Source: Microcaldota archaeon (GTDB lineage: Archaea; Micrarchaeota; Micrarchaeia; Micrarchaeales; CABMGC01). Taken from it: a stretch of DNA of 64,000 nucleotides. This document shows, piece by piece, positions 7,678-13,141 of the stretch. Position 1 is the first letter of the stretch. Every line of letters starts with the position of its first letter. Location: assembly GCA_021818925.1 (NCBI GenBank), contig JAKASU010000001.1, positions 132,036 through 196,035 of the forward strand, written 5' to 3'. A model generated the notes under the pieces. That model was not told where the DNA came from. It was given only the letters and a program-made list of their open reading frames with translations, and made no database searches. The position numbers were made by a program, and so were the translations under genes.

Positions 7678-9003
7678 CTAATCCCAGTCTATCTCCGTTC
7701 TCTCAGTTATCTCGCCGGCGATGTTCTTCGCAAGCAGGTTTGCTGCCTCTGTCCTCTTGTGGTTGCCCAGGAGCCATCCCAGTTTCACGAGCGCGACCTC
7801 CGGGAGCATGTCCTCGCAGTATACCGCTCCCGTGCCTGAGATGAGCCTCAGGTTCCTGTAGACGTTGGCGTTGACCCTTCCGTTTAGGCACTGGGATGTC
7901 ATGCCGACGACCATCCCCGATTCCACGGCGCGCTTGATGTGTCCAAGCCACGAAAGCTTCCCGTCGGTCGGGGCTACGGCTACGTGCCCCATGCCCGTGC
8001 CCTCTATTATGATGCCCTTGTACCCCCTGTCTATGTAGAAATCTATTATCTCTGGATCGGAGTTTGGATAGAACTTGAGCAGCGCGACCCTCGGCTCGTA
8101 GCCTGGAACAACTCGCATTCGACCGCCTTCGCTTCTCCTCTTCCTGCTCTCGTCCATGTACTCGATGTTGCCGTGCGTGTCTACTCTTGCTATCGGCCTG
8201 CCGTTTACGCTTCTGAACGCGTCCCTGCGCGTCGTGTGCAGTTTCCTGACCTTTGTCCCGCGCATAAAGTTGCAGTAGCTATCGGAGGCGTTCGCGTGCA
8301 TGCATATGCCAACCTCTGCCACGTTGCCTTTTGCTGCCATGTGGGCTGAGCAAAGCAGGTTCATGAATGCATCGCTGGAACCCCTGTCAACGCTGCGTTG
8401 CGCTCCGGTGAGCACCACCGGGCCGTTCACGCCTTCAAGCATGAAGCTAAGCGCGGCTGCGGTGTAGTGCATCGTATCGGTGCCGTGCGTCACCATAACC
8501 CCGTGCGAGTCTGAGAGCGCCTTCGCAACGGCCCTTGCTATCTCCTGCCAGTTCTTGTAGGTCATGTCCTCGCTTGCGATGCGCATCGGGCTGACGACCT
8601 TGAAGTTTGCAACGTCTAGTATCTCCGGAACCTGCGCAAGCATCTCTTCCGGTTCGACGAGCATGTGCACCGCGCCGGTCACGTAGTCTACCTTGCTCTC
8701 TATCGTGCCGCCTGTGGACACGATGGCAACGTCGGGGAGCCCTTCTTTCTTCTCTAGTTTTACTCTCGGGAACGCGAACGACTCCTTCTCGCGCTGCAGC
8801 CTCTCTATCTTAGAGCCGCGCTTGAGCTCTAGACCTATGTTGTACCCGTTCTTGAGCTTGATCACTAGCGCGTCCTGGTCTCCGAACTCGGGTCTTGGAA
8901 GAAGCACGCCCTCGAAGCTCTTTCTGTTTGAGACGACCCTCACCGTGTCGCCGGGCACGATGCCCTTTTTCTGCAGCAGGGCCTCTATTTCCCTAGAATA
9001 CAT
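7678..9003 (-). CDS. gatD: Glu-tRNA(Gln) amidotransferase subunit D
   Basis: L-asparaginase-like subunit that releases ammonia for transamidation by GatE. A small N-terminal barrel (~1-75: GDTVRVVSNRKSFEGVLLPR) precedes the asparaginase fold. Catalytic segments VSTGGTIES and VTHGTDTMHYTAAAL carry the two threonines and the Asp. The conserved GIIIEGTGMGHV is also present. The ORF track starts at 9081, but ATG 9003 (MYSREIEALLQKKG) begins the family sequence, and an A/T-rich TTTAAAAT box lies just upstream on the minus strand. It forms a two-gene operon with gatE, one base apart. Confidence 0.95.
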   Translation of the reverse strand: MYSREIEALLQKKGIVPGDTVRVVSNRKSFEGVLLPRPEFGDQDALVIKLKNGYNIGLELKRGSKIERLQREKESFAFPRVKLEKKEGLPDVAIVSTGGTIESKVDYVTGAVHMLVEPEEMLAQVPEILDVANFKVVSPMRIASEDMTYKNWQEIARAVAKALSDSHGVMVTHGTDTMHYTAAALSFMLEGVNGPVVLTGAQRSVDRGSSDAFMNLLCSAHMAAKGNVAEVGICMHANASDSYCNFMRGTKVRKLHTTRRDAFRSVNGRPIARVDTHGNIEYMDESRKRRSEGGRMRVVPGYEPRVALLKFYPNSDPEIIDFYIDRGYKGIIIEGTGMGHVAVAPTDGKLSWLGHIKRAVESGMVVGMTSQCLNGRVNANVYRNLRLISGTGAVYCEDMLPEVALVKLGWLLGNHKRTEAANLLAKNIAGEITERTEIDWD

Positions 9004-9105
9004 GATGCAAACTACGTTTCTCCATTTTAAATTCCTTTTGCAGCCGTGGCTGAGATGTATTTTTATACCTTCACTGAGCAATGGATTGGTAAAAGGTCAG
9101 CTAGA

Positions 9106-9330: not shown

Positions 9331-12300
9331 TCACAATTTCTCTATAGCCACCGTCAGCTTCTCGTCCTCTATGTCAAAGCTCTCGGGCCCGAGACCCTCC
9401 TTGACATGCTCGCGCAGTTCTACCGCGTTCACATCCCTCTTTATCTTCGCGTGGTTCTTCTTCACCACCTCCGCGAACTGAGGGCTCGCCTCGAAGAATA
9501 CGCCTATCCTGTCCTGCTTCTTCATCCCCTTCGACTTCCTGGCAAGCTGCACCCTCCTCTCAAACTCCCTGACCATTCCCTCCTCCCACAGCTCCCTGCT
9601 CATCTCCTTGTCCACGGAGGCGATGCCGTGCTTGAACACTATCGCATTCTCACCCTCAAGCTTCTGCACTATAACGAAGTGCTCCGCCTTTATGTCAACA
9701 AGCCCCTTGTCCGTGTGCAGCGAGTAGTGGCCGCTCTCCGAGACAGCATTCTCCAGCGCGTCTGCGTCCTCCTTCTTCAGCGCCTCTCCCACAGCTCCCG
9801 CCTTCTCCTTGAAGTCCGGCCCTATCCTTGCAAAGACCGGCCTTACCTCCTTGCCGAAGCTCTCTACCCTCTTCGTCTCGATCTTCTTGATGTTCGTGTA
9901 TTCTTCTATCAGCGGAGATAGCCTCTCCAGCGCTATCTGGGTCTTGTCGTCCTTGACCTCAAGGAGCCCTTTTGCGATCGGCCACCTGAGCTTTATGTTT
10001 GCCTTCTCCCTGCTGTTCAACAGCGCTGTCATCGCGTCTCTCGCGATCGCAAAATCCTCTTCAAGCGCCGCGTTCACTGCCCTGCGGTCCACCCTCGGCC
10101 AGTCCTCCATGGAGACGCTCTCCTCGGTCGCATACAGCTGCGTGTATATGTACTCAGTTGAGAACGGTATTATCGGAGCCGTGAGTACGCACACCGTCTT
10201 CAGCACGTACGCAACGAGGTTCGCTATCCTCTTCAGTTCCCCCTTCGTCGCCTCCGCGGCCCTTTTCTTCGCCAGCTTGAGGTAGAATCTGCTGAAATCC
10301 TCAACGAAGAAGCTCCTCGCCTCGTTCACGGCCGTGTCAAGGAGATACCTGTCGAAGTTCTCATTGAACTTCGCCACAAGGGTGTTGAGCCTTGAGAGTA
10401 TCCATGCGTCTTCGGGCGTGAGCGATGCCGCGCGCGGCTTCTTTACGTTCTTCATGTCAGCTCCGGATAGCGCGGCCAGCTCCTTCGCCAGCTCCGCTGT
10501 GTTGTAAAGCGTTATTATGTCCCTGTCCGCGTCGACCATCTCGTCCTTCTTCAGCTTAAGCTCCTGCCATCTCGGATGGCTCGAGCACCAGAGCCTGAAG
10601 CCGTCTGCGCTCGCTATAGTGAAAAGGTCGTTAGCGGTCACCGCGTTGCCGAGGTGCCTGTGCATCTCTCCGCCGAACTGGTCCTTCATCATTCCCCCTA
10701 TGACCACGTTCCTGAACGGAGTCTTGCCGTGATACGCGACGCTCGTGCGCATCAGCGTAGCGAACCAGCCCCTTAGCTGCTCGTTGCTCTCGGTGATCCA
10801 GTCTGCGGGGAAGAGCCTGCCGAACTCGACGCCGCTCAGGCTCGCGGTATGCGCGATCCCGGCGTCGTACCAGACGTCTATCACGTCGGGTATGCGGCGC
10901 ATCTCCCCCTGGCACTTCATGCACTTGAACCTCACCTCGTCTATGTGTGGCCTATGCAGGTCTTCTAGTTCTTTCTCGAGCTTCGCCCTTTCCATCAGCT
11001 CCCTCGCCGAGCCCATCACCTCTATCTCTCCGCAGGAAGCGCATTTCCATATAGGTATTGGCGTTCCCCAGTACCTCTGCCTGGTTATCGTCCAATCCGG
11101 AGAGCTGTTTATCGCCTCCGCGAACCACTCCCGCCCGGCCTCCGGCTGCCAACTGACCTTCTGGTTCTGCTTGAGCATCTTCTTCTTGATCCTCTGCACA
11201 TTCACGAACCATTGCTCGGTTGCGCGATAGATGAGCTTGGTGCCGCACCTCCAGCAGTGCGGGTAGCTGTGCTTTATCTCCCCCTGGCCTAGCAGCGCGC
11301 CCGCAGCTTTCAGATCCTCGAGCACGCGCGGATTTGCTTCCTGCGGGACCAGCAGCCCAGAGTACGCGCCCGCCTCTTCTGTGTACCTTGCGTGGACGTC
11401 AACTGGCGAGAAGATAGGCAGCCTGTGTGCCTTGCCAAGCTTCTCGTCCTCTATGCCATGCCCAGGGGCCACGTGCAGCAGCCCGCTTCCCTCCAAAACG
11501 GTAACGAAAGTTTCGCTCAGTATCACCTTATGGTACTTCCTCAGAGTCTTCTGCATCGGCACCTTGTCCTCCAGCGGGCTCAGGTACCTCACGCCCTCAA
11601 GCTCGCTGCCATAGAACTCCTTCAGCACCGCCGCGCTTGCCTTCATGACGCTTGCAAAGTCGTCAAGCCTCTCCTTTGCGAGAATGTAGTCCTTGCCGTC
11701 AATCTTTGCGAGCACGTACATCTCCTTCGGATTGGCCGCTATTGCGACGTTTGCGGGCAGCGTCCATGGCGTGGTCGTCCACACCACGAGATGCGTGTCG
11801 TGACCAATCTCGATCCTGTCGCCCTTGCTCCCGACCGCGGGGAAGGCGAGGAAGAGCGAAGGATCTGTGTCCTCCTGGTACTCCAGCTCTATGCTTCCTC
11901 CCGCAAGCACCGTTTCGCAATGCGGGCAGTATGCAAGCGGCTTCAGGCCGCTGTAGACAAGGCCCTTGTTGTATATGCTCTTGAATATCTCCCAGCCCTT
12001 GTTCATGTACTCCTTCTTGTACGGAAGGTAAACGTTCGCAAAGTCAAAAGACGCGCCTAGCCTCATTAGCGTCTGCGTATCCTTCTCTATGCCCTTGTCG
12101 ACAAGCTCCCTGCAAGCCTTCACGAAGCTGGCTATGCCCACCTTGTTCTCTATGTCCATCTTCGACTTTATGCCGAGGTTCTTCTCCACTTGGTTCTCGG
12201 TAGGCAGTCCATGTACATCAAACCCGTTCCTGTCGTGCACGCTGAACCTCCTCTGCTTCTTGTAGCGCACCACCATGTCCTTTATGGTCGTAACCCACAT

Positions 12301-12450
12301 GTGGTGCGAGGCGAGTTCGGAATAGGCGTACGGGGGGCCATCCAGGAAATAGAACTTCTTGCCCTTGCCAAGCGCCCTGACCTTGTTGTTCGTGTCGTGC
12401 TCCTTCCAATATTCGAGCATCTCCTCTTCGCGTCCCCTAAGATCCAGCAT
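9331..12450 (-). CDS. ileS: Isoleucyl-tRNA synthetase with altered HIGH and KMSKS motifs
   Basis: Class I synthetase for Ile-tRNA, ~1039 residues, the normal length. Family blocks are clear: DGPPYA near residue 40, GFDVHGLPTE, editing-domain WTTTPWTLPANVAIAANP, RQRYWGTPIPIWKC, GWFATLMRTSVAYHGKTPF and a zinc-type CPHC near the first insertion. The two ATP signatures are not canonical. The HIGH position reads ASHH (PYAYSELASHHMW) and the KMSKS position reads EMHRH (GGEMHRHLGN). Only the second His of HIGH and the downstream LGN remain. The DNA is unambiguous on both strands. It could be an active but diverged enzyme or an editing-type paralogue. The ATG at 12450 follows a TTG at 12453. Confidence 0.85.
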   Translation of the reverse strand: MLDLRGREEEMLEYWKEHDTNNKVRALGKGKKFYFLDGPPYAYSELASHHMWVTTIKDMVVRYKKQRRFSVHDRNGFDVHGLPTENQVEKNLGIKSKMDIENKVGIASFVKACRELVDKGIEKDTQTLMRLGASFDFANVYLPYKKEYMNKGWEIFKSIYNKGLVYSGLKPLAYCPHCETVLAGGSIELEYQEDTDPSLFLAFPAVGSKGDRIEIGHDTHLVVWTTTPWTLPANVAIAANPKEMYVLAKIDGKDYILAKERLDDFASVMKASAAVLKEFYGSELEGVRYLSPLEDKVPMQKTLRKYHKVILSETFVTVLEGSGLLHVAPGHGIEDEKLGKAHRLPIFSPVDVHARYTEEAGAYSGLLVPQEANPRVLEDLKAAGALLGQGEIKHSYPHCWRCGTKLIYRATEQWFVNVQRIKKKMLKQNQKVSWQPEAGREWFAEAINSSPDWTITRQRYWGTPIPIWKCASCGEIEVMGSARELMERAKLEKELEDLHRPHIDEVRFKCMKCQGEMRRIPDVIDVWYDAGIAHTASLSGVEFGRLFPADWITESNEQLRGWFATLMRTSVAYHGKTPFRNVVIGGMMKDQFGGEMHRHLGNAVTANDLFTIASADGFRLWCSSHPRWQELKLKKDEMVDADRDIITLYNTAELAKELAALSGADMKNVKKPRAASLTPEDAWILSRLNTLVAKFNENFDRYLLDTAVNEARSFFVEDFSRFYLKLAKKRAAEATKGELKRIANLVAYVLKTVCVLTAPIIPFSTEYIYTQLYATEESVSMEDWPRVDRRAVNAALEEDFAIARDAMTALLNSREKANIKLRWPIAKGLLEVKDDKTQIALERLSPLIEEYTNIKKIETKRVESFGKEVRPVFARIGPDFKEKAGAVGEALKKEDADALENAVSESGHYSLHTDKGLVDIKAEHFVIVQKLEGENAIVFKHGIASVDKEMSRELWEEGMVREFERRVQLARKSKGMKKQDRIGVFFEASPQFAEVVKKNHAKIKRDVNAVELREHVKEGLGPESFDIEDEKLTVAIEKL

Positions 12451-12529
12451 CAAAACTCAACCGAGCAATTAGGATTACCAATTGCATTGCTATTATTAAA
12501 AAGCTAATGTATTATACTCTCACGATTCG

Positions 12530-13141
12530 ATGAGAAATGCCGATGCGGTGTCGATTCTGCGCATACCGCTGCTGCTCCTCCTTGTGTACGCCATATCGGT
12601 AAGGGCAGACGCTGCAGCGTCGCTCGTCCTTCTCGCGATACTCTTCGTGTCAGACGCCGCCGACGGCTACCTTACCTTCGACGAGAAGCTTTCCATGTCG
12701 GATTTCGTGCACTATCTCTTTGAGGAGGCGCGACTCGCAAGGAAGAGGGAGCGCTCAAGGCCAAAGACGCCACGGTACGCCGCATTCCTCGACATAGGAG
12801 TCGACAGGTTGATAGAGTACGCGCTCTGGCTCACCTTTGTCCTGCTCTCCGTGACTCCCTGGTTCGTGCTCGCCATAGTGTTCCTCAGGAACACGATAGC
12901 GGATGCGCTCGTGCTGAGGAAGAGGAAGGCATTCTCCGAGATGCACACCGGTTTCGGAAGGATAGCATCATCGCACGTAAGCCGCGGCGCCTATGCGGTA
13001 CTGAAAGCTGTCAACTTCGCCTACCTTGTGCTCGTCGCTACCGCTGGATGGCCCATCTCGGCCGGCTACGCCCTGACCGCAGCCGTCGTGGTATTCTCCC
13101 TCTTCCGCGGCGTAGCGGAGATATACGAGGCTACGCGCTGA
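12530..13141 (+). CDS. CDP-alcohol phosphatidyltransferase-like membrane protein
   Basis: 203 residues with about five to six hydrophobic segments. The family signature DG-x2-AR-x8-G-x3-D-x3-D is recognisable but split. SDAADGYL supplies the first acidic pair and AAFLDIGVDRLIEY the second. About 45 mostly charged residues lie between them (FDEKLSMSDF...RKRERSRPKTPRY). The Gly before the second Asp pair is Ala. Family enzymes join a CDP-activated lipid to an alcohol such as glycerol phosphate or inositol phosphate. A role in polar-lipid synthesis is likely, but the substrate is unknown and the insertion may alter it. It has its own start at 12530 and lies ahead of the pilin-like gene. Confidence 0.6.
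   Translation: MRNADAVSILRIPLLLLLVYAISVRADAAASLVLLAILFVSDAADGYLTFDEKLSMSDFVHYLFEEARLARKRERSRPKTPRYAAFLDIGVDRLIEYALWLTFVLLSVTPWFVLAIVFLRNTIADALVLRKRKAFSEMHTGFGRIASSHVSRGAYAVLKAVNFAYLVLVATAGWPISAGYALTAAVVVFSLFRGVAEIYEATR

Follow-up and report, generated by a model that had tools for sequence, protein, structure and literature searches.

The stretch of DNA analysed here (the window; 64,000 nucleotides, positions 132036–196035 of its contig) belongs to a Micrarchaeota-type genome of 760,734 bases, the close relatives of which, where they bear names, are mostly Micrarchaeota MAGs. On its minus strand lies ileS (9331–12453), encoding an isoleucyl-tRNA synthetase (IleRS) of 1039 amino acids when read from the ATG at 12450; a TTG at 12453, the codon immediately before, is an alternative start, and the ATG agrees with the upper coordinate given for the gene in a preliminary description of this DNA. 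The gene is flanked by one for an asparaginase/GatD-type protein (7678–9081, minus strand), also found beside ileS in loci L007–L009 and L015, and by one for a CDP-alcohol phosphatidyltransferase-like protein (12530–13141, plus strand), with a like neighbour at ileS in L007, L008, L015 and L019; both were named by reading the sequence. The ileS product matched TIGR00392 over its full length with 750.6 bits (cut-off 621.4) and its AlphaFold2 model had a mean pLDDT of 93.4. The best solved fold matches were 8c8v and 8c8w, the Priestia megaterium type 2 IleRS (PmIleRS2), of which 8c8w is the GVHH mutant, and the fold also matched the Thermus and Priestia IleRS structures used in the alignments below.

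Class I synthetases are classically recognised by two motifs, HxGH (the HIGH motif) and KMSKS, neither of which is present in this protein. The HIGH position is occupied by A47-S48-H49-H50 (12301–12312, minus strand; coordinates computed from a residue numbering that sets M1 at 12450), that is, by HxGH with positions 1 and 3 swapped, and the KMSKS position by E595-M596-H597-R598-H599 (10654–10668, minus strand), in which R598 replaces Lys. Both replacements had been pointed out in the preliminary description and were borne out by phmmer alignments and fold matches: ASHH aligned with HVGH or GVHH and EMHRH with KMSKS of the Thermus and Priestia enzymes, and the flanking GPP, KD, GN and RGW blocks were in register, ruling out a frameshift or misalignment. 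Neither the fourth His of HIGH (His50) nor the Met of KMSKS has changed, and Arg598 retains a positive charge. The same description held every other family block to be intact, which proved almost correct. The CP1 editing core from the TTT block (T225-T227) to the GHG.ED block (D335; 11446–11778, minus strand) shows little or no variation in the family and is intact here, including N234 and H326, and adenylate-pocket residues D78, E554, Q558, W562, K57 and D58 are likewise intact. Among the pocket residues checked, only two changes were observed outside the motifs, namely G585 (10696–10698, minus strand) in place of the His present in most archaeal IleRSs at −10 from KMSKS, and S555 (10786–10788, minus strand) in place of the Gly or Ala found elsewhere beside the conserved Glu554. 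By alignment these map to H581 and G551 of Thermus IleRS, which we take to flank the adenylate pocket.

A search for another ileS, as the preliminary description advised, found no second IleRS in the genome, which is 97.55% complete, and relatives carrying the swapped motif gave one IleRS match each. Genes for tRNA-Ile(GAT) and tRNA-Ile(TAT) are present. ARAGORN calls in the same genome (L231–L270) included several intron-bearing tRNAs and odd anticodons, for example tRNA-Pro(AGG) and a tRNA-Asp(ATC) with a 494-base intron; some of these calls are probably false. A sequencing error is ruled out, since three congeneric genomes carry ASHH or AAHH together with EMHRH at 75–82% protein identity. 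Between ileS genes of congeners (74–82% identity) dS is approximately 1 and pN/pS 0.19–0.29, a sign of purifying selection. The TyrRS in the window keeps HIGH and KMSKS, from which the absence of genome-wide drift had been argued, and a pattern scan agreed with this since the signatures of LeuRS, MetRS, CysRS and TrpRS were also recognisable (the scan did not pick out ArgRS or GluRS). The ValRS of the same genome (L247; G000:C3:121823-124186, minus strand) has HTGH and PMHKS, with the first Lys and the Ser of KMSKS replaced and the Lys at position 4 kept.

IleRS sequences were aligned (225 in all) and 218 of these were placed in trees with the motif columns left out. Of the 218, 33 IleRSs, all from one archaeal order and all bearing [A/G]x[H/Y]H, formed a single clade with support of 100 in the 218-sequence tree and again in a 68-row IQ-TREE analysis, and forcing this swap clade together with the bacterial-type swap enzymes was rejected (AU test, p=1.3e-57). 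These results exclude transfer of a bacterial G/AxHH IleRS2 and demonstrate that the HIGH swap in this archaeal order has an independent origin. An IleRS with GIHH and TMSKS from a record titled Diapherotrites archaeon (L056) grouped with a minor bacterial-type swap clade (L096, L097), possibly through cross-domain transfer or a binning error. Of the genomes of the phylum that gave no IleRS match, ten contained nothing but ValRS- and LeuRS-like hits scoring under the IleRS cut-off, for which assembly gaps are the simplest explanation.

Changes in the two motifs were fully coupled, the swap and an Arg at position 4 of KMSKS occurring together in 33/33 members of the clade versus 0/84 other IleRSs of the order; the Fisher p value is tiny, although all changes map to a single ancestral branch, so that the coupling represents one event without an independent replicate. 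The 84 other IleRSs of the order all retain the first His and Gly or Ala at position 3 of HxGH as well as the Lys at position 4 of KMSKS, and this Lys is kept in 185/185 IleRSs outside the clade, including 39/39 bacterial-type swap enzymes, the restriction of Arg to the clade thus being a statement about the 218 sequences in the tree. Further markers of the clade are P626-R627 (10570–10575, minus strand; 33/33), which is diagnostic for it, G585 (33/33) and S555 (32/33). His50, Arg598 and Arg627 are invariant (33/33), Arg627 being unique to the clade and the fourth His of HIGH being variable (Q, T, G, A) in relatives. Position 3 of HxGH is His in 28/33 members; in the remaining five (L016, L023, L132, L135 and L195) the motif is GxYH, with no His at position 1 or 3, in the only matched IleRS of each genome. 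At least four His/Tyr changes at this position were counted on the tree, Tyr always accompanying Gly at position 1, and the third His is therefore usual but not obligatory. The xMHK form of KMSKS, with the first Lys lost and Ser changed to His, is more widespread than the clade, being found throughout the order as well as in Desulfurococcaceae (L042) and ValRS; it is probably older than the swap, with the first Lys and Ser already lost in the ancestor of the order.

Four pairings of the motifs were observed in the order, HPGQ with EMHKK/S/H, H[ML]GH with AMHKS, HP[GA][HQ] with KMSKS, and [A/G]x[H/Y]H with [E/Q]xHR[H/S/N], while related families of the same class mostly have HPGT with KMSKS. 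Most other IleRSs of the order (L020–L035, L129–L203) show the first of these pairings, with HLGG, HPGA and HIGG also seen and the fourth His lost, and one KMSKS subclade sits nested and looks like a reversion. The congeneric genomes G002 and G007 carry HPGQ-type IleRSs. In G007 the gene lies between GatD-type and CDP-alcohol phosphatidyltransferase-like genes, the same neighbours as in the window, and in G002 it adjoins the CDP-alcohol phosphatidyltransferase-like gene. HPGQ/EMHKK-R (L015, L019) and ASHH/EMHRH (L006–L009) thus share one gene neighbourhood within one genus which, together with the tree, suggests that one IleRS type has taken over the locus of another.

The sequence of this IleRS, its register, fold and sole-copy status, the clade, the covariation and the purifying selection are established, whilst that it is catalytically active, and what each residue does, is what we infer. 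It is probable that this protein is the sole working IleRS of the organism, with a rebuilt ATP-phosphate site in which His49 serves for the first His, Arg598 serves for Lys, and G585, S555 and R627 compensate. With Ala or Gly at the first position of HxGH and His in place of the third-position Gly, His49 would do the job of the first His, leaving that of His50 unchanged. Arg598 would substitute for the catalytic second Lys of the KMSKS loop, retaining a positive charge for pyrophosphate. The adenine, next to the bulky residue at position 3, is probably accommodated or repositioned by Gly585 and Ser555, and Arg627 is a probable support for the altered KMSKS loop. The sole copy, the tRNA-Ile genes, the 33/33 covariation, the intact pocket, the pN/pS values, the PmIleRS2 folds and the activity of ALHH and GVHH enzymes are all consistent with an active, rebuilt IleRS. 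Rewiring of the ATP site in this lineage had been among the possibilities first raised, and the 33-member clade, the fully correlated changes and the purifying selection support it. The assignment to His49 and Arg598 is less comfortable with the bacterial swap enzymes, which keep the Lys at position 4 so that their precedent leaves the Arg uncovered, and with the five Tyr-bearing members.

The Tyr-bearing members and Arg627 would be compatible with a reassignment that goes deeper, in which the residue at position 3, whether His or Tyr, does no more than shape the adenine pocket and His50, Arg598 and Arg627 hold the phosphates, a new constellation instead of a first His that has moved. The recurrence of His-to-Tyr changes within the clade, each time together with Gly at position 1, and the invariance of these three residues, one of them confined to the clade and another variable outside it, fit such a scheme; yet position 3 remains His in 28/33 members and the GVHH crystal structure offers a simple role for that residue (PMC10485003), and we regard this reading as unlikely. 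More tentatively than our preferred account of a rebuilt phosphate site, both class I ATP motifs could have been rebuilt as one coupled set in a constellation not seen before, comprising Arg at position 4 of KMSKS, the clade-specific Arg627 and GxYH lacking His at positions 1 and 3, which would free phosphate activation from the textbook His and Lys. That the protein is instead dead for activation and retained for editing or tRNA binding, as the preliminary description had allowed, with another enzyme charging isoleucine, is very improbable. Both signature motifs do differ, and alanine mutants of these motifs lower catalysis in LeuRS (PMC10450160), but a sole IleRS accompanied by tRNA-Ile genes and kept under purifying selection leaves no place for an editing-only protein beside a second IleRS. 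In addition, the motif residues covary and the checked pocket residues are conserved except for Ser555 and Gly585. As to origin, analogy with bacteria makes a natural inhibitor of IleRS resembling mupirocin a possible, though doubtful, selective agent, which would be compatible with either mechanism. The motif swap alone changes the mupirocin Ki about 200–800 fold in three bacterial enzymes (PMC10485003), and one genus seems to have traded one IleRS type for another at the same locus, as can happen with resistance genes; in sister lineages, however, the fourth His and KMSKS change freely without the swap, which fits drift or compensation equally well.

The HIGH half of these changes is already known from bacterial IleRS2 enzymes in which HxGH positions 1 and 3 are exchanged (G/AxHH); these are active and hyper-resistant to mupirocin, up to 1000-fold, since the work of the first His is done by the third (PMC10485003). 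For Deinococcus IleRS2 (ALHH) the kcat is 45.5 per s and the Ki for mupirocin 6.6 mM, and an engineered GVHH IleRS2 is active, its crystal structure placing the third His in the functional position of the first (PMC10485003; PDB 8c8w). The altered chemistry suggested in the preliminary description is consequently only partly needed, applying to the Lys-to-Arg change at position 4 of KMSKS and the Tyr versions, for which no precedent was found in the literature searchable. In LeuRS the HxGH and KMSKS motifs are energetically coupled, with the hydrophobic residue of the motif and the Met packing against the anticodon-binding domain (PMC10450160), and joint change of both motifs in IleRS is thus reasonable. 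The non-canonical motif was described for IleRS2 only, with 41 archaeal IleRSs counted apart; no report of it among these 41 was found in the text of that study, from whose survey sequences lacking the catalytic motif were removed (PMC10485003). The open literature yielded no paper on a Micrarchaeota IleRS. The observation is real and conserved, and the literature searched explains only half of it, the G/AxHH swap, and offered no precedent for the accompanying change in KMSKS. New are the separate archaeal swap clade, extending the motif swap, possibly with tied resistance, to an independent archaeal origin, the paired Lys-to-Arg change, the Pro626-Arg627, Gly585 and Ser555 markers and the Tyr variants. 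The natural series within one archaeal order (HPGH/KMSKS, HPGQ/EMHKK, AxHH/EMHRH and GxYH/EMHRH) provides a test bed for how both motifs change without loss of an essential enzyme, and cautions against calling such enzymes dead or excluding 'motif-less' sequences from surveys, as was done previously (PMC10485003).

Compared with canonical class Ia IleRS (TIGR00392; Thermus 1ile), the enzyme shares the fold, the editing site and most adenylate-pocket residues but differs in both signature motifs, in the His at −10 and in the Gly beside the conserved Glu. With other IleRSs of its order (HPGQ/EMHKK, HMGH/AMHKS, HPGH/KMSKS) it has in common the gene slot in congeners and, with most, the loss of the first Lys and the Ser of KMSKS (xMHK in those relatives), whereas the first His, the Gly or Ala at position 3 and the Lys at position 4 are retained in all 84 of them. 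The closest parallel is bacterial G/AxHH IleRS2 (Deinococcus ALHH, Streptomyces), since ASHH likewise has Gly or Ala at position 1 and His at positions 3 and 4, in a full-length protein of type-2-like fold. It differs from these enzymes in having Arg598 where 39/39 swap enzymes outside the clade have Lys, and in belonging to an archaeal clade, some members of which carry Tyr at position 3, that is placed apart from IleRS2.
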